From the NCBI GenBank assembly GCA_003135475.1, contig PLBW01000064.1:1-41599 (forward strand): DNA of 41,599 nucleotides, read 5' to 3'. Below, piece after piece: positions 20,296 to 38,467 of the stretch. Position numbers and translations under genes: made by a program. Position 1 is the first letter of the stretch, and each line of letters starts with the position of its first letter. The notes beneath the pieces were generated by a model. The model was not told the DNA's origin. It was given only the letters and a program-made list of their open reading frames with translations, and did no database searches. Source of the DNA: Acidobacteriaceae bacterium (GTDB lineage: Bacteria > Acidobacteriota > Terriglobia > Terriglobales > Acidobacteriaceae).

Positions 20296-21516
20296 ATGGC
20301 AAACAAAAGAATATCTGACATTCGAATAACTCCGGACAACCAGACAGTGCTAAAGCAATTGGGCCTTCTTCAGGATCTCGCCGGAACATGGAAGGGGAAG
20401 GGGTTCAACTTGATTGCCCGACCCAACTTTCACGATAAGACGGACCTCTACCTGCAACTAAATCAGACCCGTGAGACGTTGAAGTTCGACCCGATTGGGT
20501 CATCCATCCCGAATCGTGGTTTCGGCCAGGATGACATTGAGTTGTTCGGCTTAACCTATCTGCAACAGATTTCCGATGCCGCCTTCGACGGGGCACTGCA
20601 CATCGAGCCGGGCATCTGGGTCAGGCAACCCTCTACTGCATTTCCGCCCGAAACGGCACCCGCGCAAGGGCAACTCGTGGCTCGGATGGGCACGATCCCC
20701 CACGGCAACTCGTTGTTAGCCGAAGGTGTTGCTGAGCCTTTCACGGGTCCCCCCGTGCTCACGGTTCCTGGTAGTCAATATAATTTCTCACTCTTCCCGT
20801 CATTTAACAGCACGCCCTTTGCTGTTCCGCCGACCGCCCCAGGGATCGTCTTCAATGCCGCAGGCTCATCGGAGAAGCTCACCGCCCCCACCGTGCCAGC
20901 CACACCGTTTCCCCAATACGATGTCACCGTTCCGGTCGGCGCCATCCCCGCAGGCCCTTTCAATCCGCCTTTTACGCTCAACACCCGAACGCCCTTTGAC
21001 ACCACCCCACCGGAACCGCCTCTGCCTCCGAACATCGACGGTGTTCCCATGCAAGACGTCATCAACGATCCGATTTTGCTTCTCCAAAAACGCGTCGAGC
21101 AACTTGTGGCCGACGGCTATAAGTTTGAGGGGACAGCCCTCAACATCGCCACCACCACACCGCTCAGCTTTCTCAAGAATGCCAACTCCGGTGCAGCCGG
21201 GCCGGCAGTACCAGTCACGGTACCGCAGTTCGGTGGGGGCATCGAAAATATTCAGTTTCTGAATGGTGAGAGCCCCGTCGTCGCAGGCAAGACGGAGCTA
21301 CAAGAAAATGCCGAGACAGCGGTTGTCTATGCGACATTCTGGATCGAAAAAGTGACGCACAAGACGAACGGCCACACGTTCATGCAGTTGCAGTACGCAC
21401 AAATGGTGGTGCTCAACTTCCCCATATTCCATTTGCTCAATCAAGCACCCCCTGCCTATGTGAACTTGGGATGGCCGCACATCTCGGTGGCGACGTTGAG
21501 GAAGAGCTTTAGCTAA
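20296..21516 (+). CDS. Lipocalin/nitrobindin-like protein
   Basis: This is a 406-residue protein. The N-terminal segment LGLLQDLAGTWKGKGFNLIARP followed by LYLQLNQTRETLKFDPIGSSIPNRG and IHIEPGIW-like (ALHIEPGIWVRQP) strands resembles the fatty-acid-binding-protein/nitrobindin-type beta-barrel, in which GxW near the start is conserved. A long proline-rich middle (about 110-260: PFNPPFTLNTRTP, TPPEPPLPP) separates it from a C-terminal barrel-like half ending in ATFWIEKVT...FMQLQYAQMVVLNFPIFHLLN. There is no signal peptide. The ligand is unknown; haem or fatty acid binding is only suggested by the fold. AAGGAAT precedes the ATG. It stands alone, with a 115-bp gap upstream. Confidence 0.6.
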   Translation: MANKRISDIRITPDNQTVLKQLGLLQDLAGTWKGKGFNLIARPNFHDKTDLYLQLNQTRETLKFDPIGSSIPNRGFGQDDIELFGLTYLQQISDAAFDGALHIEPGIWVRQPSTAFPPETAPAQGQLVARMGTIPHGNSLLAEGVAEPFTGPPVLTVPGSQYNFSLFPSFNSTPFAVPPTAPGIVFNAAGSSEKLTAPTVPATPFPQYDVTVPVGAIPAGPFNPPFTLNTRTPFDTTPPEPPLPPNIDGVPMQDVINDPILLLQKRVEQLVADGYKFEGTALNIATTTPLSFLKNANSGAAGPAVPVTVPQFGGGIENIQFLNGESPVVAGKTELQENAETAVVYATFWIEKVTHKTNGHTFMQLQYAQMVVLNFPIFHLLNQAPPAYVNLGWPHISVATLRKSFS

Positions 21517-22221: not shown

Positions 22222-24120
22222 CTACCTCTTGGGAGGCATCGTTGGAGGGCCCCCCCTGTTCTTCTGGGTGGCTTGTGAGACGGAGCCGTCCGGGTTGTGA
22301 GCGACATTGTGGCACACCAACGTGCAGGTGTTCGTGGCGCGGGTGTAGGAGACTGGCGTACCAGCATTCGCAGCGACCACATTGATGTCGAAGTTCACCA
22401 GACGCTCGCCGGAGATGGTCCCGCTTCTCGCGCCCATGCCGTGGGCGGTATGGCAAACCGAGCAGGTGAAGCCGGTGTTGATGTGGTCACCGTGATGGTT
22501 CCAGCTTGCATTGGAGACGACATTGTGAAGGTCGTGGCACTTGCCGCACATGGCGTAAGGACCCTTGATGCTTAGGTCAGGGTTCGGGTACAGGTTCGTA
22601 ATCAACTGACCGGGTCCGGGCGCCTGGCTGAACTCATAGTCCCGTTCGAGGATGTGCTTGTTGGTCGATCCATGGGGACCATTGGGACCCACGCCCCCAA
22701 ATTCGCGATTGTCATCGCTGTTGTGGCAGTCGGTACAGAAAATCTGGTTACCCATGGAACGCCCGTGAGTGGTGCCGCCGTTCAAATCCAACATCGTAAT
22801 CAGCAAGCTGGGCTGGGGTAGCGAACTGGTGCGCGTATGGGTCAGGGGATGGCTCGAGGAAGCGGTGGCGGCGAACTGCGGGATGACATTCAGGGGATCG
22901 CCCGCCGAGCCCGCCCTCAGCGGCAGATACCCGAACACGGGGTTGGAAAGTTTTCCCGAACTTGTACCGTGGCAACGCAGACAATTTTCGTACTGATTGA
23001 CCGAAGGATTAAGGATGGATATGCCGTCCGTGGCACTGATTCCGGCAACCCCATTCTGCGACACACGAATGGCCGGAGGCGGCGGGAAGATCGATACCTG
23101 GTTGGACGAATGCCCGTTGTGGCAGTCCGCGCACGTGGCATGCCGGTTGTTGTTTAACAGAACGTCTTCGGCAGCGTCGTGCGCATTGTTACCCGCGGGA
23201 AACGGATGTCCCACCTTGGCAAACTCGGCGTACACATTGGGAATCGGAGGGTTGAGATTTGTGCTGCCGTTATGGCAGGCAATACAGTCCTGCTCATTGG
23301 GCCCGCGCAGCAGCCGCATCGGTCCCTGCGCGTTGTGGGGCACGTGGCAGGAGATACACGCATTTTGCCCGACTGTGCCGTAGCTGCCAAGGTTCGCCTG
23401 CCCGGCTACTTTGTTAGTCACCAGGGCGTGCGCGCTGGTGGCCCATCCCGCAAGCGGATTGATCTGGCCGGACATGGTCCGGGTGGGATCGTGGCAGGCA
23501 AGACACATCTGCGCGTTCGAACTGTCGCGCACCAAAAAGTTCTGCGATAACCTATCGATGGCCTGCACGTGAGGGTTATGGCAGGAAGTACACTCAATGT
23601 TCCCGTCGATCAACTTCACTGCTCCCGTGGGATCGCCTGTCTTGCCCTGTGAAGCCAGGGATGCGATCAGGTCAATCGTATCCTTGATGGGCAGTACCAG
23701 GCTGAAGGGATGCGAACTCTGGAGGTTGGTCCCGAAGACATCGGCGGGATACATGGATCCCTTCATTGTGATCTGGCCATAGACAATCGTTTGGCCGACC
23801 GCGACGGTCCCGTCGTGGCAGCTCAAACACAAGTTGCTGTCGGCGCCCATGGTAGGTTGGGTGCCTTTTTGGTGATAGGTCGTGCTGGTGTAGAGCGAAT
23901 AGGTCGCCTTGGTCTGCGTCTGGTTCCACAGCGGAGTTCTTCCCCCCGCACCGGAGTGGGGCTCATGGCAATAGGTGCAGGAACCAGGGCGAGCGCCGGT
24001 AATCGGCGATTTGCTGGCCGGCCCCAAATCATGCATGCCGATCACATCCCCAGTGATCTGCGCCAGCAGGGTAGCCCCAGCCAACATCAGCACCGTGCAG
24101 ACAGATAATGCTCGCTTCAC
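22222..24120 (-). CDS. Twelve-haem c-type cytochrome
   Basis: This is a 632-residue exported multihaem cytochrome. A signal peptide (1-20, ending TLLA) is followed by a MHDLG segment and CTYCHEPHSG (Cys48-His52), the typical opening of doubled-CXXCH cytochromes, then LWNQT. I count eleven CXXCH motifs (CTYCH, CLSCH, CTSCH, CLACH, CISCH, CIACH, CADCH, CLRCH, CTDCH, CGKCH, CSVCH) and one unusual CX3CH (CTLVCH, 599-604). Extra histidines (for example SHPF, GHPF, SHPLTH) could give bis-His ligation. It would carry electrons in the periplasm, outer membrane or cell surface. The GTG start overlaps the upstream NHL gene by 4 bp (GTGA), indicating coupling. It is the last gene of the porin-cytochrome operon. 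Confidence 0.9.
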   Translation of the reverse strand: MKRALSVCTVLMLAGATLLAQITGDVIGMHDLGPASKSPITGARPGSCTYCHEPHSGAGGRTPLWNQTQTKATYSLYTSTTYHQKGTQPTMGADSNLCLSCHDGTVAVGQTIVYGQITMKGSMYPADVFGTNLQSSHPFSLVLPIKDTIDLIASLASQGKTGDPTGAVKLIDGNIECTSCHNPHVQAIDRLSQNFLVRDSSNAQMCLACHDPTRTMSGQINPLAGWATSAHALVTNKVAGQANLGSYGTVGQNACISCHVPHNAQGPMRLLRGPNEQDCIACHNGSTNLNPPIPNVYAEFAKVGHPFPAGNNAHDAAEDVLLNNNRHATCADCHNGHSSNQVSIFPPPPAIRVSQNGVAGISATDGISILNPSVNQYENCLRCHGTSSGKLSNPVFGYLPLRAGSAGDPLNVIPQFAATASSSHPLTHTRTSSLPQPSLLITMLDLNGGTTHGRSMGNQIFCTDCHNSDDNREFGGVGPNGPHGSTNKHILERDYEFSQAPGPGQLITNLYPNPDLSIKGPYAMCGKCHDLHNVVSNASWNHHGDHINTGFTCSVCHTAHGMGARSGTISGERLVNFDINVVAANAGTPVSYTRATNTCTLVCHNVAHNPDGSVSQATQKNRGGPPTMPPKR

Positions 24121-25220
24121 TGCGACCCTCCCTTGCCCGGCTTGGCGACGCCGTAGTAGTGGAAGACCTGAACCCGCCGGTTAAAGGAATCCACCACGAA
24201 AATCCGGTCGTTGTGGTCGATAAACAAGCCGGCCGGCAACTGAAATTCACCTGCACTTGTGCCGCGATTGCCGAAGTAGTAGAGCAGGTCGCCGTCGCGG
24301 TTGAAGACCTGCACTACGCCCCACAACCCGTCCACCACGTAGAGGTCGCCTTCGGAGTCGAGCCCAATCCCTTTAGGACGAAACATGGTTCCGGGGCTGT
24401 CGCCGATCTTCCCCACCGCGTACTTAAAGGCGCCGGAGCGGTCCAGCACCTGCACGCTGAAGTTCATGGCATCCACCACGATCAGGTTCTGGCCGTCCAG
24501 CCGCAGCTCGGTCGGAAAATTGAATTTGCCGGGGCCCTCGCCGTTTTCCCCAATGGTCTGCACCACGCTGCCCTGCATGTCCAGAACAAATATCTTGTTG
24601 CGCAGCGTGTCGGTGACATAGATCCGCTGGGCCGCTGAATCCACCGCAATCCCGGTAGGGCGCTTGAAGAAACCTTCGCCGCCCTTCAGGCTCCCGAGCG
24701 CCCGCTGATACTTCCCGTCGGAGTTGAAGACAAACACCTTGCCCGATTCCGAATCGGTCACGTAGATATTGTCCTGGGCATCCACCGCGACGCACTGTGG
24801 CGCCAGCATAGGGTCCTTGCCTTTGCCGGCGCGCGACAGGAACTTGTACTTCTGTTGCTGGAAATCGAAGATGTGGACTCCGATCGCTCCCGGGTCGGTC
24901 ACGATGATGCGCCCGCGGGAATCGACGGCGATGCTATAGGGACGGACCAAACTGTGGAATTCCGGCTCGCCGGCAACGAAGTCGAGCACTTTGTTCCAGA
25001 AACCGCGCTTCGGTTTCACTTCGCGCTGGGAACTGAAGCTGCGCTCGTAGCTAAGCTTGCGGCCGCCTTCCAGCAACATATCCGGAGGCGCAGGCTGGGC
25101 GGGCTTCTCTTTGGGCTTGGACGCCCACGCCGGGGTCAGCAGGAGAAGAAGAATGCAGGCGACGTTGGAGAAAAAATGTGAGGTCCTCGTGCGCGCTCCC
25201 GCTAGAAGAAGTTGAACCAC
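24117..25220 (-). CDS. Exported NHL-repeat beta-propeller protein (second copy)
   Basis: This is a 367-residue protein with a hydrophobic export segment (about 20-34, LLLLLTPAWA) and six NHL repeats from about residue 90 to the end, each with the pattern P.GIAVD...IYVTD...N.I.VFD..G, including RPTGIAVDS..QRIYVTDTLRNKIFV. NHL units form a six-bladed propeller that acts as a protein-binding scaffold. The start is GTG 25220, 19 bases inside the beta-barrel gene; no better start precedes the signal segment. It lies between the beta-barrel and the 12-haem cytochrome, overlapping both, so strict co-translation is likely. Its paralogue is at 29476-30762. I infer a periplasmic or surface assembly factor for the cytochrome complex. 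Confidence 0.85.
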   Translation of the reverse strand: MVQLLLAGARTRTSHFFSNVACILLLLLTPAWASKPKEKPAQPAPPDMLLEGGRKLSYERSFSSQREVKPKRGFWNKVLDFVAGEPEFHSLVRPYSIAVDSRGRIIVTDPGAIGVHIFDFQQQKYKFLSRAGKGKDPMLAPQCVAVDAQDNIYVTDSESGKVFVFNSDGKYQRALGSLKGGEGFFKRPTGIAVDSAAQRIYVTDTLRNKIFVLDMQGSVVQTIGENGEGPGKFNFPTELRLDGQNLIVVDAMNFSVQVLDRSGAFKYAVGKIGDSPGTMFRPKGIGLDSEGDLYVVDGLWGVVQVFNRDGDLLYYFGNRGTSAGEFQLPAGLFIDHNDRIFVVDSFNRRVQVFHYYGVAKPGKGGSQ

Positions 25221-27034
25221 CTGGTCACCCCAAGGAAAAACGAGGATATTTTGGCGGGCGGAAGACCTGACGCGCTGAAGCCCTGCGAAAGGTGTGCGTA
25301 TCCCCCCGTCAAGTACATTTTACGGAATTGGTACTGCAGCAGCGCATTCATTCCCTCAAATTCGTTGGAAGACCCAATGCCGGCATTCACCGTGTTGGTC
25401 GATGATTTGGAGTAACTGGCCGACACGGTCAGCTTGCGCAGCGGCGTACTGCCAAGCCCGACTCCGTAGCTGGTTCCACCATAAAGGGTGATCAGGTCCG
25501 ATGGTATGATCGGCGACAGGTTCAGCGGCAGTATCCCGCCCCCGGTAATAAGTCCGATGCCATTCGATTTGGCGTAATTGGCATTGAGATTGATGTACTG
25601 TTTCCACCCAAAGCCGGTCGTGTAACCCTGGCTGCTGCTGTTCGTACCGGGTAGGTTAGTCAGGCCGCTGCGGCTGAAGTTTGCCGCTCCGCTCCAATTG
25701 AAGCTGCCGAAGCGGCGTCTCACATTCCCCGAGTAGTTATAGTACGAAGTCGTATAGGTGATCAGCAGGGTCGAGACATTCTGCGCGTAGTTGAAAGACC
25801 CGCCCACAAACCACTGGCCGATTCGGCGCGTATAGTTCGTGTTGATCGAGAAACCGAGTGCGTTCTGGCTGCTGTTGTCCACCATGCTGTCAATCAAGCT
25901 CAGGCCAGTGTTCAATGAGCCGCCCAGGAGACCATGCGCGTAGGTGACACCCGCGCCAAAGGACGTTGCTCCGAAGTTTTCCCCCAGGTAAGTCTGATCG
26001 CGGCGATCGACTTGAGCCTGGAGCTGCAGGTTCGGCGCCAGGGAATAACTTGCCGTCCCGTTCAGGTCCCAGGCATGCGACGATTGCAGGTCGTTTGCCG
26101 GCAGAAGGTTACTGCCCGACTGGAGCAACGATTGAAAGATAATTCCAGCCAGATTATCGGTGTAGCTACCCGTCATTGCCATATGCAGCTTGTCGGTAGG
26201 TTGCACCCCCGCGCTGGCAACCACTGTATCAAAGCTCCCCTTGTAGCTATAGCCAAGGTAATCCGTATCAATATTTGACCGGTAGAAGCTGGCGCTAAAT
26301 TGTCCTTGCAGGGGAAGTTTATGCGACACGTTCAAGCCGTACCCGCTGTTGTCGGTAGTGATGGTCCCCGTCTGCGAGCCCTGGAAAACCTGTGGCACGA
26401 GTGCGTTGGAAGCTCCCGTCTGATAAGAAGCCGCCAGATTGAAACCCGCAATCGAGTAACTTGAGCTCAGGCCGAAGGAATGAAAGTTGGATCTCCCATT
26501 GCTATTTTCCCCATACACCGAGTACTGGTTGTTGCCCATCTGGAAATTTGCCGTGAGGCTGGGCCAGTCGGGAAGGAACTCGCTCCAGTTAATCCCAAAG
26601 GTGTCGCTATTGCCGTGGGTGGTGAAGTTGGGCAACCCGGGAACGGCAAATTGTCCCTCGCTGTTATACGCCTTGGCGTAGCTGATCGATCCCGGAAAAT
26701 GGCTGCCGTTGAAGATGGAACTGGAGAAATTGACGCCGCTGCTGTCGGAGATGGATTGGAAGTTGGAGTTGGCCCGCGACTGCCCGTAATAAGGCGAGAG
26801 ATTGAAGGAGACAAAATTGGGACTGTAGTAATAGCCGGAGGCAGTGGCATTGCCCCCTACACTGACGCCGTGTGACGACTGAATCTCATTGCCATAGTCT
26901 GCGCTGTAGCCGGCGGAAACCACCCCGCTCAGGTTGCTGCTCAGCTCGCCCACCTGGATCTGGCCAGCCGCCGGCAGCACCCAAAACAACAGCCCGGCTA
27001 TCCCGCAAAACGCATCTCGGATAATACGGCGCAC
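25202..27034 (-). CDS. Outer-membrane beta-barrel protein (porin-like)
   Basis: This is a 610-residue protein from GTG 27034, chosen because GACGAGG lies just upstream and the start gives a good signal peptide (RRIIRDAFCGIAGLLFWVLPAAG). The frame is open further, but that part overlaps the PpiC gene. The mature protein is a long series of alternating hydrophobic/polar strands rich in Ser, Asn, Gly and Tyr (for example FGLSSSYSIAGFNLAASYQTG), and ends in ...TRWFNFF with a C-terminal Phe, the signal for the BAM machinery. It has more than 20 likely strands. No Pfam family was recognised. Next to multihaem cytochromes it is a candidate for the insulating sheath of a trans-outer-membrane electron conduit, by analogy with MtrB/OmbB. 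Confidence 0.8.
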   Translation of the reverse strand: MRRIIRDAFCGIAGLLFWVLPAAGQIQVGELSSNLSGVVSAGYSADYGNEIQSSHGVSVGGNATASGYYYSPNFVSFNLSPYYGQSRANSNFQSISDSSGVNFSSSIFNGSHFPGSISYAKAYNSEGQFAVPGLPNFTTHGNSDTFGINWSEFLPDWPSLTANFQMGNNQYSVYGENSNGRSNFHSFGLSSSYSIAGFNLAASYQTGASNALVPQVFQGSQTGTITTDNSGYGLNVSHKLPLQGQFSASFYRSNIDTDYLGYSYKGSFDTVVASAGVQPTDKLHMAMTGSYTDNLAGIIFQSLLQSGSNLLPANDLQSSHAWDLNGTASYSLAPNLQLQAQVDRRDQTYLGENFGATSFGAGVTYAHGLLGGSLNTGLSLIDSMVDNSSQNALGFSINTNYTRRIGQWFVGGSFNYAQNVSTLLITYTTSYYNYSGNVRRRFGSFNWSGAANFSRSGLTNLPGTNSSSQGYTTGFGWKQYINLNANYAKSNGIGLITGGGILPLNLSPIIPSDLITLYGGTSYGVGLGSTPLRKLTVSASYSKSSTNTVNAGIGSSNEFEGMNALLQYQFRKMYLTGGYAHLSQGFSASGLPPAKISSFFLGVTRWFNFF

Positions 27035-27050
27035 TGCATATACCTCGTCC

Positions 27051-28067
27051 CTACAGCACCTCGACCTTGGCGCCCTGGTGCAGTTGCTTGTCGAAGCTGG
27101 CGCGCAGGTCGTTGGTCTTCTTCTGCTGCAGCTCCTTTTGCAGAGAGGCTTTGACATCTTCAAATTTCGCTTTGCCGGCAGGAATGTGCTTAACCAGCCG
27201 AACGATGGTGTAAGCCTGCTCAACCTGGATAAGGTCGCTGACCTGGCCCGGCTGCATGGCCGCCAGTGCCTGCACCACGACGGGCGGCAGCTTGGCGCGA
27301 TCTACCGGCTTGTGGAAACCCATCATCACGCGGTAGTCATCTTCGGAGATCTTTTCCGCCAGCATGCCAAACGCTTCATCGGTTTTCGCCGCTTTCGCCT
27401 GTTTGAGCGCATCATCGGCCCGCTTGCGCTGCTCTTTCAACAGGCTTGGGGTCGGCTTTTCCGGCGGCAGGAGGGTAATGGTCTGAAAAGCGAAGGATTC
27501 GGGATACTTAAATCGCTCCGGGTTCTTATCGTAGTAGGCCTTCAACTCGGCCAGGCTCACCGTGGACTTGTTGTCCACTTCGGCCTTCAGCAGTTGGTCA
27601 ATCAACAGCGAGCGCTTGATCTTTTCGCGCAATAGCTGTTCCGAGCCTTGAAATTCTGCCTTCAGGAACTGGTGGTACTCCTCGGGAGTGGCGAACTGTT
27701 TGCGAAAATCCGCTTCCGCACGGCTCAGACGTTCAGGCGAAACTGTCATCTTCCGCCGCTGCGCCTCCTGATAGACCAGTTCCTCGAAGATAATCATCTT
27801 CAGCGCGCCGCGGCGGATGCCCGGTTCCATCTCCGCAGGAATGTTGCCGTTATGCTGGCGCGCATAAGGAAACATGGTGAACATCTCAGTCTGCAAATCG
27901 CGGTCCGTAAGCACCGCCCCGTTCACCCGCGCCACCGGCTTGCCGCTGGGTTGGCCGGTTGTCTTTTGCGGGCCTGAGAACTGGGTGGGGGCGTGTGAAG
28001 CAACCTGGGCGGATGCCGCGGAGACTGTGAGCAGAACTATAGCGATTGCATTCCGGTACTTCATCAC
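27051..28067 (-). CDS. PpiC/SurA-like periplasmic peptidyl-prolyl isomerase
   Basis: This is a 338-residue parvulin-type foldase. A signal peptide (1-20, ...VSAASA) is followed by a SurA-like N-terminal chaperone region (VARVNGAVLTDRDLQTEMFTM, then MIIFEELVYQEAQRR). A LKAYYDKNPERFKYPESFAFQTI linker leads to a parvulin domain with GMLAEKISED...GFHKPVDRAKLPPVV, then MQPGQVSDLIQVEQAYTIVRL, which is the conserved PpiC ending. It would help fold exported or outer-membrane proteins in the periplasm. It lies 16 bp upstream of the beta-barrel gene and 65 bp downstream of the tetrahaem cytochrome, so it probably serves those two products. Confidence 0.9.
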   Translation of the reverse strand: MMKYRNAIAIVLLTVSAASAQVASHAPTQFSGPQKTTGQPSGKPVARVNGAVLTDRDLQTEMFTMFPYARQHNGNIPAEMEPGIRRGALKMIIFEELVYQEAQRRKMTVSPERLSRAEADFRKQFATPEEYHQFLKAEFQGSEQLLREKIKRSLLIDQLLKAEVDNKSTVSLAELKAYYDKNPERFKYPESFAFQTITLLPPEKPTPSLLKEQRKRADDALKQAKAAKTDEAFGMLAEKISEDDYRVMMGFHKPVDRAKLPPVVVQALAAMQPGQVSDLIQVEQAYTIVRLVKHIPAGKAKFEDVKASLQKELQQKKTNDLRASFDKQLHQGAKVEVL

Positions 28068-28094
28068 CGCTCCTCACCCCTGAGGTTAAAGATT

Positions 28095-28117
28095 GAGGGG
28101 AGGAAATTCCTCCCCTC
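28095..28117 (-). terminator. Hairpin after the tetrahaem cytochrome gene
   Basis: A near-perfect inverted repeat, GAGGGGAGG...CCTCCCCTC, with a 5-nt AAATT-type loop lies 15 bases past the tetrahaem stop and before the PpiC gene. On the minus strand it is followed by AATCTTTAACC, a poor U-tract. It may be a partial terminator or an mRNA-stabilising hairpin that sets cytochrome and foldase levels apart. Confidence 0.6.
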
Positions 28118-28132
28118 GGTTAAGGCGACAAA

Positions 28133-29005
28133 CTAGAAGGTTGTCGGAATGGCGTCGCCGCCGTTCATTTCGTTGGCTTCGCCACCATGGCACTGACGGC
28201 AGAATTGCGCCGTCTGGTTGGAGCCGGCCGTTCCGCTGCCCGGGTTGTAGGGCGCGCGGATGAAGAACATCGTCTTGTAGATGCCCGGAGGCAGACCTGA
28301 CTTCGAAGCGGTGACCTTCACCACATTCATGAGGTGCTGGTTGTGGCAGGTCGTGCAGGTAACCACAGCGGTGTTGTTATAGGCGCTCAGGCTGACGAAG
28401 AAGCCGTAGTTAACTTTGAACTCAGACGACTTCGGGCCGTTCATGTTGATTACGCCATTGGTTTCGGTGCAATCCCAGTCATACGTGCCACCGCAGCTAA
28501 CCGCCGCATTCAAGCCCACCGGATGGTCGTTGAGGTAATCGCCGGTACCGTTGCCGTCCTTGCCGAGCAGGGTCGGAATGACGTTCTTGGTTCCATAAGT
28601 TGGCGGCAGGCTCTCATAGACCTGGTTCCTCATCATGGCGCCTTGGGCGTAGTTACCGTCGTGGCAGCTCAGGCACAAGGTGATGTTGAGGTCAGGTGTG
28701 GAACCGGTAAATCCAATCAAGGTCTCCGAGTAATTGTGCCCGGGACCGGTTCCGCCGAAGAGCAGGGTTTTGCCGACCAGATTGCCTACGTCCTGGCCCC
28801 ACAGTGCGACGTCGCCGGAGGTAGTATCGCCAGAGCCGTTGATGCCGTTGCCCCACGCGCCGCTATGCGGAGCGTGGCAGGCAGCGCAGCCGCGGCCGTA
28901 GTTAAGGTGAGCGCCCAGAACGTCAGACGTTGGGCCGCCCATCTGGGCCATCGCGAACATCCCGAAGGCCAGAATCGTGAGGGTTACTAGAATTACTTTT
29001 TTCAT
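28133..29005 (-). CDS. Tetrahaem c-type cytochrome, OmcE-like candidate
   Basis: This is a 290-residue exported cytochrome. A signal peptide (1-20, FGMFAMA) is followed by GAHLNYGRGCAACHAPHSG. Four CXXCH motifs bind haem at His44, His115, His211 and His273. Five other histidines (33, 47, 90, 151, 214) are enough for four bis-His haems, including NDHPVG, a motif often seen in such cytochromes. Cys161 and Cys169 may form a disulfide. The long Gly/Asn/Ser/Tyr-rich linkers with only four haems recall the small cytochromes that polymerise into extracellular filaments (OmcE type). This is a resemblance in size, haem number and gene context, not a demonstrated match. AGGAG lies before the ATG. Confidence 0.85.
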   Translation of the reverse strand: MKKVILVTLTILAFGMFAMAQMGGPTSDVLGAHLNYGRGCAACHAPHSGAWGNGINGSGDTTSGDVALWGQDVGNLVGKTLLFGGTGPGHNYSETLIGFTGSTPDLNITLCLSCHDGNYAQGAMMRNQVYESLPPTYGTKNVIPTLLGKDGNGTGDYLNDHPVGLNAAVSCGGTYDWDCTETNGVINMNGPKSSEFKVNYGFFVSLSAYNNTAVVTCTTCHNQHLMNVVKVTASKSGLPPGIYKTMFFIRAPYNPGSGTAGSNQTAQFCRQCHGGEANEMNGGDAIPTTF

Positions 29006-29395
29006 GAGATCGATCTCCTGATATGGACTGCAGTTTTTGATTCCGAACTCCCGGAGACCCTAGGCCCCGATGGCCTCCGCTAGTGGTAACAGCAACTGGC
29101 TGGCCGAAGAATGAACGGCGGCTCATTTTTATGTAACTTATTAAAAATGCTGGTGTTGTGAGGGTCGTGCACACTCAGCTTTAGCTTCTCCGGGTGGGTG
29201 AAATGATCCACTTGGCAGGACTAGCTGGTTAAATGCCCCAATCGGAGCAAAAGCTGGATAAGTTTCGTAATGGGAAACATCGGGAGGAAACTACAGCGGA
29301 GCCTTCAGTCGCGCTCACAAGGATACAACTTTGGATGTAGGCTGTGGGAGGGAATTGCCGTGTCTCCGGCTGCTGGATTCCAGGGCCGGTTTGCG
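29006..29395 (-). promoter_or_regulatory. Long 5' leader/promoter region of the tetrahaem operon
   Basis: About 390 non-coding bases lie upstream of the tetrahaem gene. An AT-rich stretch (about 29125-29150, minus strand TTTTTAATAAGTTACATAA) is the best promoter candidate. Just before the ATG, GAGATCGATCTC (29006-29017) is a perfect 12-bp palindrome overlapping the AGGAG ribosome-binding site. Several small hairpins (for example AGGCC...GGCCT near 29065) can form. No known riboswitch was confirmed. Confidence 0.45.
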
Positions 29396-29427
29396 TCAGG
29401 GCACCGCTTTCTTTAGCCGTGCCCTGA
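29396..29427 (-). terminator. Strong hairpin after the first NHL gene
   Basis: TCAGGGCAC and GTGCCCTGA pair perfectly (9 bp), continue after one mismatch with GCT/AGC, and enclose a 6-nt loop. It starts about 50 bases past the NHL stop on the minus strand. There is no T-run, so it may be an intrinsic terminator without U-tract or a processing/stability hairpin separating the two halves of the cluster. Confidence 0.6.
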
Positions 29428-29475
29428 TACAAAGCAAAGTGGTTCTCTTAAGAGCGCCTATCCACGCTCGAACTT

Positions 29476-30762
29476 CTACTTCTTGACTTCGGGCTTGGCC
29501 TGCGCCGCCTGCTGCGTCGTCGCTGGCGGCTCGTTGGCCGCCTTCTGGCCGCCTCGCTGCGCTTCCTTCTCCTTCTTGACCTGCTCGGCTTCGGCATCGG
29601 TGATGTAGCGGAATTGCTGCACTCGGCCGGGGTACTGCTCCGAGGTGAAGACGCGGTTGTTCTTGTCGATTGCAACCCCGACCAGCGATTCAAACTGGCC
29701 CGGATAATGACCAGGTCCGCCGATGTAAGTCAGCAGTTGTCCCTCGCGATTGAAAACCTGCAACTGATTCTGCATCGCATCAGCCACCCAGATGTGCCCA
29801 TCGCCGTCCACCGCAATCCCCTTGGGCCGGGCAAAATATCCGGGACCGTCGCCGTTCTTGCCGAAGGTACTGAGGAACTTGCCGTCGGCATCGAAGATTT
29901 CTACCCGATCGTTGAGAGTGTCGGTGACGTAAACGTTGCCGTCCTTGTCGAGGGCCACACCTTGGGGCGCGGCAAAATCTCCCGGTTCCGTGAGGAAGTG
30001 GTTCTTGCCGGAAGTGCCAATCTTGCGCAACAGCTTGAGGCTGTCTGCGTCGTAAACCAGCACCTGGTCCTGTTGGGTATCCACGATGTAAAGAAACCGG
30101 TTCTCCTTGTCAATCGCCAGTCCCACCGGATCGACCAGGCCCTTGTCAATCTGGTCCACCACCTCATGCTTGGCGTTGAAAATCAGCACCCGGCGCAGCT
30201 TTCCATCGGAAACGAAGATGCGGTCGTCGTCGTCGATGGCTAGACCGTTGATCAGGCCGAAGTGCGCCTCGTAACCGTTGCGAATCAGCACCACATCCCG
30301 GGTTTCCGTGTTGAAGATGAAGATCGCCCCTACCCTTTGGTCGGCCACATAAAGCTGGCCCTTGGAGTCCACTGCCATGCCGTAAGGACCAAGCAGTTGG
30401 AAGGGGAAATTCTTAAGATTTTCCTTTTCGTCCTGCGGCTTGGAGCCTGCCAGCCGGTCCATCCAGCCCTGCTTGGGCTTGGGTTTCGACGCGGCCGGGG
30501 TATGGTCGATCTTCATCCCCGCGTAGTAGGCGATGTAACGAACTCGCGGAATGGACGGCGGCTGCGGCCAGACGAGTTTGGAAATGTCGATCTTGGACAG
30601 ATCGACCATTTGTTCTAAACCTGGTCGGGAGGGGGCCGCTTCGGTCTTCTTTTTCTTGCCGGCATAAACCGAAACGGGCGAAGCCAGCCCCACCATTAAC
30701 ACGACCGCCAGCGCCATCCCAGCTTTGCCGCGGCAAAAACGAGTTGGGTAAATCGTAAGCAT
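29476..30762 (-). CDS. Exported NHL-repeat beta-propeller protein (first copy)
   Basis: This is a 428-residue protein from ATG 30762, which has GGAG ten bases upstream; in-frame ATGs further up lack a site or overlap the cytochrome. A signal segment (about 12-34, MALAVVLMVGLASPVSVYA) is followed by a KKKKTEAAP linker, then WPQPPSIPRVRYI and six NHL repeats (about residues 125-395), for example GVALDKDGNVYVTDTLNDRVEIFDADG. The C-terminal 50 residues are charged, Gln/Ala-rich and probably disordered. It lies 26 bp downstream of the 16-haem cytochrome and is a paralogue of the propeller at 24117-25220. I infer a scaffold for cytochrome assembly or secretion. Confidence 0.88.
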   Translation of the reverse strand: MLTIYPTRFCRGKAGMALAVVLMVGLASPVSVYAGKKKKTEAAPSRPGLEQMVDLSKIDISKLVWPQPPSIPRVRYIAYYAGMKIDHTPAASKPKPKQGWMDRLAGSKPQDEKENLKNFPFQLLGPYGMAVDSKGQLYVADQRVGAIFIFNTETRDVVLIRNGYEAHFGLINGLAIDDDDRIFVSDGKLRRVLIFNAKHEVVDQIDKGLVDPVGLAIDKENRFLYIVDTQQDQVLVYDADSLKLLRKIGTSGKNHFLTEPGDFAAPQGVALDKDGNVYVTDTLNDRVEIFDADGKFLSTFGKNGDGPGYFARPKGIAVDGDGHIWVADAMQNQLQVFNREGQLLTYIGGPGHYPGQFESLVGVAIDKNNRVFTSEQYPGRVQQFRYITDAEAEQVKKEKEAQRGGQKAANEPPATTQQAAQAKPEVKK

Positions 30763-30788
30763 CTTCACTATTCTCCACATCCTAAAAT

Positions 30789-32219
30789 CTATTTCGTAAT
30801 CACCCTCATGTCGAACCGGTTCTTGTGGCAGTTGTCGCAAAACGCCATGTTGTTGGCCTGGTCCTTCGCCAGCAGATCGGGCTGGGCGGAAGAATGCGGC
30901 TGGTGGCAGCTCAGGCAGCTCATAGGATACTTGACCTTGGTAATGTTCGCCGGATCCATGACGTCACCAACCGGGTGGGCCTCCGTCGGATGGCCCAGGC
31001 CGTATCGCAATGGAAGTATTGCCACCTTGTTCTTCACATAGTAGTCGGCGGGCAGCTTCACCTTCCCATTGAAGATGGTCAGCAGGTGTTCGGATTCCAA
31101 CTTCTCCGGTCGCGAATCCGGGCCATGACACTCCAGACATAACGCATTACCTTGCGCCCGCAGCAGCTTCGGATTGTTCCCGCCATGCGGCTCGTGGCAG
31201 GTGGCGCAGCCTTGGCCAAACGCCGGTTGATGCAGGTGCGCTTTCTTCATCTGCTCCGCTTGTTCACTGTGGCAGGTGAGACATGCGTTAACCGGATCAG
31301 GCTGCAAAAAGCCCGGCGTCGCTCCGGCGTGCGGATTGTGGCAGGCAATGCATTCGCCCTGCGCGCCCGGATGTTGCACCTTCGCCTTCTCAATCTGCTC
31401 TGCCTGATCGCTGTGGCAGGTAACGCAGAGGGCCTTGGTGTCGCTCTGGGTCAGCACCACCTTGCCGTCTTTGGCGGGCGCGTGACAGGTATCGCAGCTC
31501 CCGCTGGCGAAGGGCGCATGCGTGAACGCCTGCATCAGCTTGGGCTGCGACGACTGGTGGGGATCGTGGCACTGCACGCAATTGGCAGTGGCGAACGGTT
31601 GCCCTTGATGCGCCTTGATCAAGCCAGCGTCCTTGGGATCGTGGCAATCGAGGCACAGCGCCGGAGGCGCCTTGGCCAGGTGATAGTCAAACTCGATCTT
31701 GCCCTTCTCCCCGACCTTGTGAGTAATGTGGCAAGTGTCGCAGCCCATATCCAGCGCGGCGTGCCGGCTGCCTTTGTCGGGAACGTTGAGCCCCTTGTTG
31801 TGGCAGGTCAGGCAAAGGTTCTCTTTGGCCCCGCCCGAAGTCGGCTTCAGCAGTTGGTTCTTGTTGTCCGAAGTGTGCGGATCGTGACACTTGAGGCAAT
31901 CACGAACTGCCGGAGGATGGACCGTGCCTTTCAGGTCGGCAGCGTTCTTGTCGGCGTGGCAGGTAAGACAAAGCGAGTATGGCGTTGCAGTGATAAGCTT
32001 CACGCGAGTGACATCTTTGCTCACCCGCACTTCGTGGCAACTTGTGCAACCGGTCGCGATGGCAGAGTGGACGAACTTGCCCTTCGCCTTGTCCTCATGA
32101 CACTCAATGCACTTGGCGGAGGGTGTGTCCTTGTCCAGCGGTACCGGATGTGTGGCCGCGCCGCAGAGTCCGGCGCTCAAAATCAGGCCCAATCCCAGAA
32201 ACAACCGCATTGCCCTCAC
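30789..32219 (-). CDS. Sixteen-haem c-type cytochrome
   Basis: This is a 476-residue exported cytochrome from GTG 32219, chosen because GGGGAGG lies six bases upstream and gives MRAMRLFLGLGLILSAGLCGA as signal peptide. I count sixteen CXXCH motifs: CIECH, CTSCH, CLTCH, CLKCH, CLTCH, CDTCH, CLDCH, CVQCH, CDTCH, CVTCH, CIACH, CLTCH, CATCH, CLECH, CLSCH, CDNCH. Most are paired about 30 residues apart with CH(D/N/E)PH contexts, the doubled-CXXCH architecture. One haem per 30 residues makes it a wire-like periplasmic or outer-membrane electron carrier. It is the first structural gene after the sigma-factor pair and is followed 26 bp later by an NHL propeller. Confidence 0.93.
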   Translation of the reverse strand: MRAMRLFLGLGLILSAGLCGAATHPVPLDKDTPSAKCIECHEDKAKGKFVHSAIATGCTSCHEVRVSKDVTRVKLITATPYSLCLTCHADKNAADLKGTVHPPAVRDCLKCHDPHTSDNKNQLLKPTSGGAKENLCLTCHNKGLNVPDKGSRHAALDMGCDTCHITHKVGEKGKIEFDYHLAKAPPALCLDCHDPKDAGLIKAHQGQPFATANCVQCHDPHQSSQPKLMQAFTHAPFASGSCDTCHAPAKDGKVVLTQSDTKALCVTCHSDQAEQIEKAKVQHPGAQGECIACHNPHAGATPGFLQPDPVNACLTCHSEQAEQMKKAHLHQPAFGQGCATCHEPHGGNNPKLLRAQGNALCLECHGPDSRPEKLESEHLLTIFNGKVKLPADYYVKNKVAILPLRYGLGHPTEAHPVGDVMDPANITKVKYPMSCLSCHQPHSSAQPDLLAKDQANNMAFCDNCHKNRFDMRVITK

Positions 32220-32417
32220 AAACTGCCTCCCCACCTTAGACTAACTATGTGTGCACGTCGATTACCGCGAGCCTCCGAAGCCGCCGGGATTTGCCTCTGA
32301 CCACGCTAAGTTGCTGTTTTGGAGACAATTAGGTGGTCTCAGGATTTCTCCGTTAGCATCCCGGAAAGCTCGGATTGAGACTCGCGGAATGGGTTTTCCT
32401 CCGCATGTAAAGGTGAA

Positions 32418-32465: not shown

Positions 32466-33098
32466 CTACAGGCACGGGGTCTCTCTCTCAAACGCGAGCA
32501 ACTGCTCGATCTCCTTTTGACGCCTTCCGCGACGTCGCTTCCTCAGGTAGAGGAAGATCGGCAACCATATGGCGAGCAGCACAAAAAATGGCAAAGAGTT
32601 CAGCATGAATTCCCGTGGGTTGCCAAGCGAGCTGATCAGCGCCGGCACGATAACTAGCGCCATCCCCACAAAACAAGGTATCAGAACGAGCCAGACACGC
32701 CGCTCAAAGTCGCGCCCTTTCTCCAGTTGGCTTCTGTACCACTGGAGCGTGGTATTCAGTGGCGCATCCGGCGCCAGCCGCGCCGGCCAAACCCACTTGT
32801 ACAGTAGAAACAGGAGAGCGAGGCCCCAGAGACTTAACAGGCCAAGCCCCATGCGGGTGCTCCAAAGGCTTAGCGGGTGGCCCACCCCCCACCAAACATG
32901 GTTAACCTTGATGAGGTTCCATGCGAAGAACACGGAAAGGACGAGCCCGATGATTGCATCCCGGAGCACTTGAGAGCGAACTCCCTTCTGACGTTTTTGC
33001 GCCTTAAGGCGTAGTTGAGCTGCTGACATTTTGAAACCCTCCGTACGTTGTTTTTGCCAGATATTTTGCGGGTCGTTCATCGGGAACTCACTTGGCAT
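32466..33098 (-). CDS. Membrane protein partner of the ECF sigma factor
   Basis: This is a 210-residue protein from ATG 33098, which has a GGAGG five bases upstream inside the sigma-factor gene. A soluble N-terminus (NDPQNIWQKQRTEGFKMSAAQLR) is followed by four hydrophobic segments (two around a NLIKVNHVWWG loop, then WLVLIPCFVGMALVIVPAL and FFVLLAIWLPIFLYL) and a very basic tail (RKRRRGRRQKE). Proteins with this QN.WQ.Q.TEGF..S start commonly follow ECF sigma genes in Acidobacteriota and could be anti-sigma factors, but no zinc-binding anti-sigma motif is present. The 11-bp overlap with the sigma gene supports joint regulation. Confidence 0.7.
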   Translation of the reverse strand: MPSEFPMNDPQNIWQKQRTEGFKMSAAQLRLKAQKRQKGVRSQVLRDAIIGLVLSVFFAWNLIKVNHVWWGVGHPLSLWSTRMGLGLLSLWGLALLFLLYKWVWPARLAPDAPLNTTLQWYRSQLEKGRDFERRVWLVLIPCFVGMALVIVPALISSLGNPREFMLNSLPFFVLLAIWLPIFLYLRKRRRGRRQKEIEQLLAFERETPCL

Positions 33099-33600
33099 GA
33101 AGTCCTCCATCGTCGAACCAGCGCCTCAGGATGTTCTTGATCCGGTGAACTTTCATCCCAATGTTTGCCGGCGATAGCCCGGTGATTTCACTAATCGAAT
33201 TAGCGTCCATCCCCTCGAGATAGGAAACGATAATCTGACGGTCGAGCGGTTTCAGGCGTTGGATCAGCGTTGAGAGACGCTCCAGCGCCTGGGTCTGGCT
33301 GGCGGCGAGTTCATGATCGCCGCCAGACATAGCCTCGACGTTCTCGATGCTTACCAGTTTGTTCCTGACCCTGCTCTGCCGGATCACGTGCCCGGTGGCC
33401 ACGTTGTGCGCGACACGGTACACCCACGTCCGCATCGAACATCGCTGGTCGAAAGACGCGAAGCTGCGCCAAAGATGGAGATGAATCTCCTGGAGCAGGT
33501 CACGGCGCGTGTCGGGATCAAGCTCATACGCTCGCGCCAGCCGGTCGAGTGCAGAACCGTAGGTGTCCGCCGCCTGTTCATACAGCGAATCCTGGCTCAC
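33088..33600 (-). CDS. ECF-family RNA polymerase sigma factor
   Basis: This is a sigma-70 factor of the extracytoplasmic-function type, about 170 residues. Sigma-2 is seen in TRRDLLQEIHLHLWRSFASFD with CSMRTWVYRVAHNVATGHV, the core- and -10-binding region. Sigma-4 is seen in LKPLDRQIIVSYLEGMDANSISEITGLSPANIGMKVHRIKNIL, a helix-turn-helix for the -35 element. The frame is open to a GTG at 33669, but those first residues (RGPEPI twice) are translated from a tandem DNA repeat; I prefer a start near GTG 33600, without a strong ribosome-binding site. It sits directly upstream of the multihaem operon on the same strand and may control it. Confidence 0.85.
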   Translation of the reverse strand: MSQDSLYEQAADTYGSALDRLARAYELDPDTRRDLLQEIHLHLWRSFASFDQRCSMRTWVYRVAHNVATGHVIRQSRVRNKLVSIENVEAMSGGDHELAASQTQALERLSTLIQRLKPLDRQIIVSYLEGMDANSISEITGLSPANIGMKVHRIKNILRRWFDDGGLHAK

Positions 33601-33613
33601 GCCTTCAACCGGT

Positions 33614-33685: not shown

Positions 33686-33981
33686 GACCATTGAGCTTTC
33701 TAACAGATCTAGCCAAATATATTTGAAATTTCCCAGCTAACCCGTTTGTCCCAGTCTCTTGGCGGCCTGCCCGAGGATGATCCGGTCCCAGACCGACCCA
33801 TGATTGAGCAGCTGGCCAAATGCGCGCTTTCATCACAGAAATGGGTGATATGCCTCACTCAAGCGGCGGACATTGAAGTGTTCCTTGTCGCGCAATCGCC
33901 TAAATCGCAATAACTTACGCGTTTATGGCGGGATGGCTTCCGACGTGCACTTTAATCAGTTGCTCACGGGAAGGAGCACGC
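33686..33981. other. Divergent promoter region between sigma factor and resB
   Basis: It must contain the promoters for both directions. An AT-rich stretch lies at 33705-33730. A small open frame (TTG 33746 to 33913, about 55 codons) exists on the plus strand, without a ribosome-binding site; I do not call it a gene. Confidence 0.4.
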
Positions 33982-35457
33982 ATGGCCTTCAGCCTTTCAT
34001 CGATTCCAAAACGCATTCATAAGACCTTCGCTAATTTGCGGACAGGCATCGTCCTGCTGATTCTGGTTGTGATCGCCTCTGCCATGGGGACATTCGTTCT
34101 GCAGCGTCCCGCCACCGACGCGGACAGACTCGCCCAAGCTTACTCGCCCAACACACTGCGCTGGCTCGATCGCTTCATGCTCACCGACGTGTTCCATTCG
34201 TGGTGGTTTCTCACTCTGCTGGGATTGGTGAGTTTGAGCATCGTGCTGGTGTCCCTTGATCGCTTTCCTAATGCATGGCGCTTTTACGCCAGGCCATACC
34301 GCAAGACGGACTGGCACTTTCGCGCAGCACTTCCCCACAAAGTTGAGCTGCCCATCAAGAACGCCGAAGACGGACTGAACGCCGCCGAGCGCGCACTCAA
34401 GAAGCTGGGCTGGCCGGTCGAGCGCGTCGCCTACAAAAACGAACCCTCCTTATATTCCGAGCGGCATCGCTTCTCGGTAATGGCGGTGTACATCGTCCAC
34501 GCCAGCCTGCTTCTGATCTTCGCCGGCGGCATCATTGATGGGGCCTTCGGGTATAGCGGCTTTCTGGCGCTGCACAAGGGTCAAACCGGCAACGTCATCG
34601 AGCTGCGGAGCGGTGGCAAGAAACAGCTTCCCTTCGCGGTGAAGTGTTACGCCGCCGGACAAGACAACTATGCTGACGGTTCTCCTAAGAAGTGGTGGTC
34701 GAAACTGGCCGTCGTGCAGGACGGAAAAGAGATCGAGTCAAAAGAAATTGTGGTGAACGATCCCCTGGTTTATCGGGGATTGCGCTTCTACCAGTCCAGT
34801 TACTGGCTGGACAACCACACGGTGGACTCGCTGCAAATCGCGTGGGTGGCAAAAAACGGCAAGGAAACGCCTCTCCAGTTGCACATGAACCAGCCTGTCG
34901 CGTTGGATAGCGACGCCACCGTTTCCCTGGTGGACTACATTCCGGACGCATTCGTTCGCGATGGCCAGGTCTTCAAGAAGTCCGACGACATTGAGAATCT
35001 GGCGTTCGGGCTGGAAGTAAAAAATCGCGCCACCGCCGAGGTCAGCAAGGTCTGGCTGTTGCCGGCACAAGGCATCGTCCTCGGTGGAGAGAACCTGAAC
35101 TACCAATTCAAGAATCCGACCGGCGCCCAGGACATCGCTTTGGCGGCGGTTACCGGCCTGGAAGTCTCACATGAGCCCGGACAGTGGCTGGTGTGGGGCG
35201 GCGTGCTGTTGATGTGCGCCGGACTGGGGGTTGCGTTCTACATGGTGCATATGCGGCTGTGGATCGTGGCCATTCCCGACGCCAAGGGCAAGCTGGTGTT
35301 GTGGGTCGGCGGTCAAGCCAACAAGAACCGCGACCGCTTCGAACAGAAGTTCAATGACGTGGTCGAGGGTATCCGGAGCGAACTGGAACGCGAGTCGCTT
35401 ACATCGCGGCCTGCTCGCAAGGAACAACCGGAACTAACACTGGCTGGCGTGAAGTAA
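33982..35457 (+). CDS. resB: ResB/Ccs1 cytochrome c biogenesis protein
   Basis: This is a 491-residue membrane protein, one half of the System II cytochrome c synthase that exports haem and joins it to CXXCH motifs outside the membrane. It has ResB features: a membrane helix at LRTGIVLLILVVIASAMGT, a second at WWFLTLLGLVSLSIVLVSLDRF, a third at VMAVYIVHASLLLIFAGG with the conserved His, then a large external domain with GLRFYQSSYW, and a last helix at about 410-435. The start ATG 33982 has GGGAAGGAG upstream; the frame extends further but without such a site. It is followed by ccsA after a 190-bp gap holding a REP-type element. It fits the 32 haems encoded just upstream on the other strand. 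Confidence 0.9.
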   Translation: MAFSLSSIPKRIHKTFANLRTGIVLLILVVIASAMGTFVLQRPATDADRLAQAYSPNTLRWLDRFMLTDVFHSWWFLTLLGLVSLSIVLVSLDRFPNAWRFYARPYRKTDWHFRAALPHKVELPIKNAEDGLNAAERALKKLGWPVERVAYKNEPSLYSERHRFSVMAVYIVHASLLLIFAGGIIDGAFGYSGFLALHKGQTGNVIELRSGGKKQLPFAVKCYAAGQDNYADGSPKKWWSKLAVVQDGKEIESKEIVVNDPLVYRGLRFYQSSYWLDNHTVDSLQIAWVAKNGKETPLQLHMNQPVALDSDATVSLVDYIPDAFVRDGQVFKKSDDIENLAFGLEVKNRATAEVSKVWLLPAQGIVLGGENLNYQFKNPTGAQDIALAAVTGLEVSHEPGQWLVWGGVLLMCAGLGVAFYMVHMRLWIVAIPDAKGKLVLWVGGQANKNRDRFEQKFNDVVEGIRSELERESLTSRPARKEQPELTLAGVK

Positions 35458-35462
35458 GAGTT

Positions 35463-35605
35463 CGGGTAGTGCGGCGCTTCAGCGCCGCGTCCGGGCAGAA
35501 ATTTGAATTGAAAGCCGGGCTTTAGCCCGGCGGCATCGGACAGGGGCTAAAGCCCCGGATCATTAGCAACAGGGTTGACGCGGGCCTGAAGGCCCGCACT
35601 ACCCG
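35463..35605. repeat. Mirror-symmetric REP/BIME-like element with four hairpins
   Basis: A 143-bp element is bounded by perfect 12-bp inverted repeats (CGGGTAGTGCGG / CCGCACTACCCG). Inside are four hairpins: GCGGCGC-TTCA-GCGCCGC (35471-35488), GCCGGGC-TTTA-GCCCGGC (35514-35531), GGGGC-TAAA-GCCCC (35543-35556) and GCGGGCC-TGAA-GGCCCGC (35580-35597). The loops of 1/4 and 2/3 are reverse complements, so the unit is palindromic overall. It separates resB from ccsA. Confidence 0.9.
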
Positions 35606-35648
35606 GACTTGCGAAAAATCAATTAGTGCGGAAGACGGAGGAAAGAAG

Positions 35649-37067
35649 ATGGCAACCCGCGCACGGGTCGTACGAATGGAACCACCGGCCGCAACCGGCG
35701 GCAACGCCCTGCTGGTCCTGGTTGGACTGTCAGTGGTTTTTCTGCTGATCGTGGCCTTGCTGGGCGTGGCCAAATCTGGCGGCAGCCTGATCAGCGAAAG
35801 CAATTTTCTATATGTTGCGCTGATCTTCTACGCCGGCGCCGGCTCGTTGTACATGGGATTTGGAGTCACCGGAACGCCGCGTTACGTGAGATATGCCTCG
35901 GTGGCAACCTCGATCGGCCTGGTGGCTAATACGCTGGCCGTGGCGCACCGCTGGTATCTCTCCGGGCGCCCGCCCTTCGCCAGCATCTACGAGATGCTGT
36001 TGAGCTTTGTTTGGGCGGTGGCCGCCATGACCCTGATTGCCGAGAAGAAGTTCGGCGTCAAGATCATTGGCAGCATCACCATGCCCCTGGCGGTAGTTTG
36101 CGTCATCCTAATGCAGTTGCTGCCTTCCGAAGTGCGGCCGCTGGTGCCAGCGCTGCAATCCACCTGGCTGCATGTCCATGTCACGCTGGCGATGTTGAGT
36201 TATGCCGCCTGCGCCTTGAGTTGCGCACTGGCCATGATGTTCCTCATCCAGGACGGCTTCCAGACCGAAACTTTCCTCGCCTGGACGAGCGCGATGGTCA
36301 GCGCCATCTACATCGCCATCGTTGCCACTCGCTTCGAGAAGTGGGGCGGCTTGTCGGTCACCGGATGGAATGCCCAAACCAAGTCCGACATTTTTCTGGG
36401 CCAGGGCATGCGCCTGTTCGTCACCGTACCCGACCTGGGTTGGCTGTTTGTGATTGCGGCCTTAGCTGCAATCGTTCCTCTTCTTCTATATTTCGCGGGT
36501 CGCGTGCGGAACGATGGATCATTCTACGGGACCGCCAACAAGGCGGTATTTATCAGCATTCTCCTGCAGCTGGTGGTGGTGGCTGCTTTCGTTCTTCGCG
36601 TCCGCGATGCGGCTTACCCGTCACCCGACCAGGATGGACTCTTCCCGACCAGTCTGGCTGCCAGCCCGTTCCTACTGGGGGGCATGGTGACGGGTATTTT
36701 TGCTTCTTTGTTGTACCTGATGCTGCTGTGGCGGCGCGCCGACCTCCAGGGTCTGCTGCCCTCGGCCGACACGCTCGATCGCGTCACCTACAAGACCATC
36801 GGCATCGCCTTCCCGCTGCTGACCGGCATGATCGCCGCCGGCGCGTACTGGGCGAACCGCACCTGGGGCTCGTATTGGAGTTGGGACCCGAAAGAAACCT
36901 GGGCCGCCATTACCTGGCTGGTTTACGCGGGTTATTTACATATGCGAATCACGCGGGGATGGCGCGGGCGTAGGGCCGCGTACTTCGCCATTCTGGGCTT
37001 CGGGGTCGTGATCTTCACTTTCCTCGGCGTCACGTATCTGCTTCCCGGCTTACATGCGTACGCATGA
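35649..37067 (+). CDS. ccsA: CcsA/ResC cytochrome c synthase subunit
   Basis: This is a 472-residue polytopic membrane protein of the CcmC/CcmF/CcsA haem-handling family, the second half of System II cytochrome c synthase. The WWD signature is present as [13 protein letters not shown] (406-418), flanked by histidine-bearing segments ([21 protein letters not shown] before, [13 protein letters not shown] in the middle), which ligate haem at the outer face. There are about ten hydrophobic helices. ATG 35649 has GGAGG upstream. Its length is longer than many CcsA proteins because of an N-terminal addition with two helices. With ResB it would mature the multihaem cytochromes of the neighbouring cluster. 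Confidence 0.92.
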
Positions 37068-38431: not shown

Positions 38432-38467
38432 CTGTTTTGAGCTATGATTTTGACAGTGAGGCGGTCG

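Follow-up and report, generated by a model that had tools for sequence, protein, structure and literature searches.

A conserved seven-gene cassette of an acidobacterium proposed to build and wire an OmcE-type cytochrome filament

Overview of the cassette

A 41,599-nucleotide stretch of DNA from an Acidobacteriaceae bacterium (contig PLBW01000064.1 of assembly GCA_003135475.1; hereafter the window) carries a cassette of seven genes that probably builds and wires an extracellular cytochrome filament of the OmcE type, with a foldase, export parts and a trans-envelope conduit. The cassette spans positions 22222-32234 and encodes a 16-haem, a 4-haem and a 12-haem cytochrome (h16, h4 and h12), a first and a second NHL propeller (NHLa and NHLb), a peptidyl-prolyl isomerase (PPIase) of the PpiC type and an outer-membrane beta-barrel. 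A first-pass annotation of the same DNA had suggested an electron conduit or cytochrome-filament system. Support for this comes from the kinship of two of the three cytochromes with the OmcE family, from a barrel whose fold is nearest to MtrB and from the MtrA/DmsE-like character of h16; electron flow and polymerisation are what we infer from these. Inspection of the open reading frames confirmed seven intact genes, all on the minus strand, and their features are listed here in the order of transcription (h16, NHLa, h4, PpiC, barrel, NHLb, h12):

30789..32234, minus strand: h16, 16-haem periplasmic-type cytochrome, MtrA/DmsE-like, proposed feeder (16 CxxCH motifs; TIGR03508; 6r2q_A)
29476..30768, minus strand: NHLa, exported six-bladed NHL propeller (NHL, E=5.8e-28; start set at VKMLTIYP)
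28133..29005, minus strand: h4, 4-haem cytochrome, diverged OmcE-family protein, proposed wire subunit (profile matches; 4 CxxCH motifs; 8 conserved His)
28095..28117, minus strand: GC-rich hairpin directly 3' of the h4 stop codon, which may act as an attenuator or as a 3' stabiliser (10-bp stem, -18.7 kcal/mol)
27051..28067, minus strand: exported PPIase of the PpiC/SurA type (Rotamase_2, E=1.7e-16; SurA_N_3, E=5.2e-13)
25202..27034, minus strand: outer-membrane beta-barrel, 28 predicted strands, MtrB-like fold (AlphaFold2, Foldseek, VIA-align)
24117..25220, minus strand: NHLb, exported NHL propeller, 19 bp overlap with the barrel gene (NHL, E=1.2e-23)
22222..24120, minus strand: h12, N-terminal OmcE-like domain (about residues 1-214) and an 8-haem region, proposed wire base (OmcE profile match)

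Kinship of the 12-haem and 4-haem cytochromes with OmcE

The haem motifs of the cassette cytochromes lie far above chance, same-composition shuffled proteins giving 0-2. In h12 there are 11 CxxCH motifs and one C-x3-C-H (CX3CH) motif at residues 599-604, and because the latter is invariant in 38 relatives the 12-haem label holds with one non-canonical site; the counts of 16, 4 and 12 haems given in the first-pass annotation are thereby borne out. In a search of the PDB, the profile of the h12 family matched the Geobacter nanowire subunit OmcE (7tfs; E=1.7e-24, residues 8-211) along almost all of the OmcE chain; it also matched 9yuq (E=2.2e-20), a 16-chain entry that is 45% identical to OmcE. 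Since the third-best match stood at 3e-5, the similarity to OmcE extends beyond shared CxxCH motifs alone. Judged by its sequence, h12 is an OmcE-like domain with eight further haems behind it. The OmcE-like domain and an octahaem-like part, in which seven CxxCH motifs were counted, are encoded by two adjacent genes in Nitrospirae bacterium Kmv42 (L102) and in several other lineages; in the h12 of the window the two are fused.

The smaller cytochrome, h4, has 290 aa, four CxxCH motifs and four other conserved His residues. Its family profile also matched 9yuq (E=1.9e-9) and OmcE (7tfs; E=3.6e-4), more weakly than did the h12 N-terminus, and h4, the h12 N-terminus, OmcE and 9yuq all have their four proximal His, and four further conserved His that could serve as distal ligands, in the same order. 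These matches identify h4 as a diverged member of the OmcE family. Neighbouring subunits of OmcE-type filaments share a His ligand (PMC12954529, PMC9473688).

A tree was built of 67 OmcE-like domains. One side of a branch with 100/99 support holds OmcE, 9yuq and the 4-haem proteins that stand alone in distant cassettes; the octahaem-linked domains, fused or adjacent, are on the other. The split suggests an ancient division into two paralogous lineages, called here the "wire" type and the "base" type. Since a very long branch places the h4 family of the window next to the base type, the proposal that h4 is the wire subunit rests mainly on its gene position, its stand-alone 4-haem size and the hairpin behind its gene.

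A hairpin behind the 4-haem gene

A hairpin of -12 kcal/mol or lower lies 3' of h4 in 88% of 42 relatives, with a median of -19.0. Comparable hairpins follow five other cassette genes in 0-11% of cases and NHLa in 31%, and occur in 1% of shuffled sequence. The spacer between h4 and PpiC folds with a mean z of -3.3 (34 loci), and five of the nine consensus pairs of the hairpin show compensatory changes. Among the distant cassettes, a hairpin follows 18 of the 26 genes of the wire type vs 4 of the 18 of the base type (Fisher p=0.005, kinship ignored), the stem sequences of these hairpins being mostly unrelated. No Rfam family was found for the element, nor any sigma-70 promoter before h4. Excess of a major subunit is commonly achieved by a partial terminator or a 3' stabiliser placed after its gene, and the hairpin is as expected if h4 were produced in larger amounts than the other parts.

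The barrel and the 16-haem cytochrome as proposed parts of a trans-envelope conduit

The barrel, for which the first-pass annotation had predicted an outer-membrane location, had no sequence relatives in Pfam, NCBIfam or the PDB. An AlphaFold2 model built with 39 sequences is a barrel of 28 long strands with a mean predicted local distance difference test score (pLDDT) of 79.7. Among solved structures the model comes closest to MtrB (6r2q_B, from the Mtr complex), which ranked first in Foldseek (E=1.9e-10) and in VIA-align reached Z=16.3, with a root-mean-square deviation of 5.8 over 459 residues; the next entry had a Z of 13.9. The modelled barrel resembles MtrB, a likeness of fold and not proof of function. 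By simple barrel geometry the backbone radius is about 24-28 A, near that of a 26-strand barrel, and where a pore too narrow for a haem chain had been raised as an objection, the predicted pore is as wide as that of MtrB.

Of the cytochromes, h16 is the one with conduit kinship. It carries 16 CxxCH motifs and scored 182.8 bits against TIGR03508 (the MtrA/DmsE family), just under the cut-off of 192.2, in a family that is decahaem where h16 has 16 haems; its match to the Mtr complex chain 6r2q_A had E=1.9e-15. By these profile scores h16 resembles MtrA.

Several variants of these two components were seen in other cassettes. In L143:11158-13920 the barrel has an AMIN domain at its N-terminus (E=6.6e-7). 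The length of the feeder cytochrome differs from cassette to cassette, with 5, 9, 13, 16, 21 or 42 haems: 21-haem relatives of h16 (592-617 aa) head cassettes of families f34, f54 and f85 (L139:4618-6414, L141:1046-2821, L142:16558-18408 and L149:1877-3679), and very large MtrA-like cytochromes of family f32, with 42 CxxCH motifs and matches to the h16 profile, lie near OmcE-like genes (L145:3022-6399, 1126 aa; L146:11461-14547, 1029 aa).

Conservation and distribution

When 200 related genomes were searched with the barrel and h4 as separate queries, the two matched an identical set of 42, so that a barrel without cytochromes, which the first-pass annotation had considered damaging to its proposal, was never seen among the relatives with barrel matches. 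The window's own genome has a single copy of each. The order h16-NHLa-h4-PpiC-barrel-NHLb-h12 recurs in about 40 extracted neighbourhoods, a few loci deviating in that the h16-NHLa pair is placed behind h12. Chance grouping of the seven genes is rejected by this conserved order. Mean identity is lowest for the barrel (43%) and h4 (54%) and highest for h16 (69%) and NHLb (68%). In five loci a second 4-haem gene stands on the opposite strand, between h12 and the relocated h16-NHLa pair (L067:8190-9053, L069:12814-13671, L071:5199-6056, L080:10916-11761 and L099:6451-7305). A plasmid search gave no match.

Cassettes of the same kind reach distant families of the window's phylum, in which the h12 profile matched 48 of 396 genomes drawn, and extend to Nitrospirota, the phylum of Kmv42 (81 of 246 genomes). 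Neighbourhoods in both phyla combine an MtrA-like cytochrome, an NHL protein, an OmcE-like 4-haem protein, often PpiC, a large barrel-like protein, a further NHL protein and a fused or split OmcE-octahaem pair. A related gene set is carried by a gammaproteobacterial metagenome-assembled genome (MAG; L101). A scan of named genomes with OmcE and 9yuq as queries returned two MAGs, with no Geobacter among the matches.

Proposed assembly of the filament and competing explanations

In the proposed mechanism, PpiC would help the haem-loaded cytochromes to fold in the periplasm, the MtrB-like 28-strand barrel would provide the passage across the outer membrane, and the propellers would act as docking or assembly partners of the barrel. 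PPIase, secretion and propeller proteins have been proposed to serve the folding, secretion and morphology of OmcS (PMC13194489). The repeating wire subunit would be h4, polymerising outside the cell and supplied in excess over the other parts by virtue of the hairpin behind its gene. The OmcE-like N-terminus of h12 would present a ready-made wire end at the cell surface to which h4 subunits add, while its octahaem part, in or near the barrel, would take electrons from the MtrA-like h16, so that electrons would pass from h16 through h12 into the wire. The OmcE-like domain of h12 is covalently continued at its haem-4 end and could therefore receive further subunits only at the other end, as would fit a base. 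It may be imagined, as a tentative extension of the filament proposal, that h12 is the membrane base of the nanowire, a wire subunit covalently joined to an octahaem connector that plugs the MtrB-like barrel. Such a base would be shared by two phyla or more and would let the filament grow from an electrically connected anchor.

Several points weigh against the reading of the cassette as a filament system with h12 as its base. In addition to its long branch beside the base type, h4 is longer than OmcE and 9yuq and strongly diverged from them; forcing its family to the wire side costs 13 log-likelihood units and is not rejected (approximately unbiased (AU) test, p=0.076), so that the AU tests neither confirm nor reject h4 as a member of the wire clade. 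AlphaFold2 gave a weak model of h4 (pLDDT 62) for which no fold match was found, an outcome that is expectable and uninformative because the protein is held together by haems. Profile comparison links the barrel to those of the nearest cassettes (probability 98-99% for L143 and L144, 97-99% for L135, L136 and L152) and detected no sequence similarity to the barrels of more distant ones, which leaves homology of the barrel across the whole set of cassettes unproven. The hairpin could merely end one transcript before another promoter, and h12 may be no more than a conventional cytochrome of a conduit or of the cell surface. Cytochrome filaments as physiological conduits have themselves been disputed in one paper (PMC11077965).

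The cassette might instead encode a porin-cytochrome conduit that forms no filament, with electrons passing from h16 through the barrel to h12 at the surface and with h4 as a soluble or surface-bound shuttle. The MtrB-like barrel and MtrA-like feeder agree with such an arrangement, as does a Pfam model of MtrC/MtrF domain II/IV that matches part of h12, and homology to the OmcE family leaves polymerisation unproven. Both h4 and the h12 N-terminus fall in a family of known filament subunits, however, the hairpin suggests that h4 is made in excess, and MtrCAB is generally understood to need neither a foldase nor two propellers; a conduit of this sort is considered unlikely. About equally unlikely is a cassette devoted to export, in which the barrel would be a secretion pore for cytochromes and no electron conduit. 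The PpiC gene does adjoin that of the barrel, but the MtrA-like 16-haem protein that heads the cassette would then be superfluous, and the closest fold to the barrel is that of MtrB, a haem conduit.

It is also conceivable that h12 itself polymerises, or forms the distal tip of the wire, and that h4 is an accessory. The h12 N-terminus is much nearer to OmcE than is h4; filaments nevertheless use both ends of the OmcE unit, and in h12 one end is continued by eight haems. The hairpin moreover lies behind the h4 gene and not behind that of h12, and in the tree the stand-alone 4-haem proteins of distant cassettes share a side with OmcE and 9yuq, opposite the fused domain. This assignment of roles is improbable, and the favoured explanation remains an OmcE-type filament of h4 wired to the cell through the barrel.

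Relation to described systems

Among described systems, the one nearest to the cassette is the omcS-companion (osc) operon of Geobacter sulfurreducens, reportedly presented by Shen and colleagues in Cell Chem Biol in 2025. It is said to encode a prolyl isomerase (OscH), channel-like proteins (OscEFG) and a beta-propeller (OscD). The roles proposed for them in the making of OmcS wires are folding for OscH, secretion for OscE, OscF and OscG, and shaping for OscD (PMC13194489; see also PMC12977616). By analogy the cassette of the window is of the same kind, both sets, if these protein types of osc hold, placing a nanowire cytochrome beside a foldase, a secretion or channel protein, a propeller and further multihaem cytochromes. 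The wire of the osc operon is the hexahaem OmcS, whereas the candidate in the window has four haems and matches OmcE and not OmcS; set against the published description of osc, the window also has two additions, an MtrA-like protein with 16 haems and the fusion of an OmcE-type with an octahaem part. The first-pass annotation had asked whether homologues might belong to a different system, and the comparison points instead to the same kind of system. Its suggestion that the combination may be undescribed stands in part: the general plan is that of osc, and the sequence features that appear to differ from described clusters are the OmcE-type wire and the fused wire-octahaem protein as a candidate base.

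Among solved structures, OmcE (7TFS) and 9YUQ share with the cassette proteins four haems and the order of eight His, with a full-length match to the h12 N-terminus and a weaker one to h4; h12 differs in continuing with eight more haems. MtrCAB (6R2Q) is approached by the barrel, nearest to MtrB in fold, and by h16, related to MtrA, but the window has 16 haems instead of 10, 28 predicted strands, and PpiC and propellers in addition. The OmcA/MtrC model TIGR03507 was unmatched by h12 and h4 and reached 48.9 bits with h16 against a cut-off of 209.3; because it contains no OmcA/MtrC-family protein, the cassette falls outside MtrCAB. The barrel step may, by analogy, work like MtrCAB. No family model of OmbB-OmaB-OmcB was matched in Pfam and NCBIfam scans of the cassette proteins. 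A four-gene operon of bacteria that partner methanotrophs encodes a propeller, a 16-haem and a 26-haem cytochrome and a PPIase (PMC5539420). It likewise joins a propeller and PPIase to large cytochromes; its four proteins are described as periplasmic, and no fused OmcE-octahaem protein is described for it (PMC5539420).

Gene structure and neighbouring genes

Pfam matches (NHL, PpiC/SurA_N and Paired_CXXCH), together with NCBIfam scans, back the propellers, the isomerase and the multihaem proteins. NHLa and NHLb are 32% identical and are paralogues, as had been proposed. The overlaps of 19 bp (barrel/NHLb) and 4 bp (NHLb/h12) are as first described, and that between barrel and NHLb is kept at 16-19 bp in most relatives. 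The barrel gene most likely starts at GTG 27034, preceded by a Shine-Dalgarno-like GGGACGAGG, and therefore does not overlap PpiC. Judged by eye, each of the seven proteins has a Sec-type signal sequence at its N-terminus, in agreement with the signal peptides reported earlier, and no convincing lipobox was found in any of them.

Genes for haem attachment diverge from the cassette, and adjoin it in many relatives too:

33925..37067, plus strand: ResB and cytochrome c assembly (CcsA-type) genes (PF05140, E=1.8e-82; PF01578, E=4.6e-45)

Upstream of the cassette, a gene for a sigma-70-family factor resembling those of extracytoplasmic function (ECF; 33088-33669) overlaps that of a predicted membrane protein with no family match (32466-33110); the ECF-like factor is a possible regulator of the cassette. 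Beside the 3' end of the cassette lies a 406-aa protein with no Pfam match (20296-21516), and toward the right end of the window are an IS1595-type (ISXO2-like) transposase (38444-39427) and a small protein with a PEP-CTERM sorting motif (40782-41447).

Implications for nanowire anchoring

The anchoring of nanowires to the membrane, the points at which electrons enter them and the conservation of their secretion machinery across taxa were named as open challenges in a 2025 review (PMC12307469). The OmcE-octahaem fusion, encoded together with a barrel like MtrB and a feeder like MtrA, is a concrete candidate for both anchor and entry point, and the fused wire-octahaem protein makes the question of wire anchoring testable. 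With the cassette genes as markers, wire builders other than Geobacter could also be sought in Nitrospirota and in the phylum of the window.

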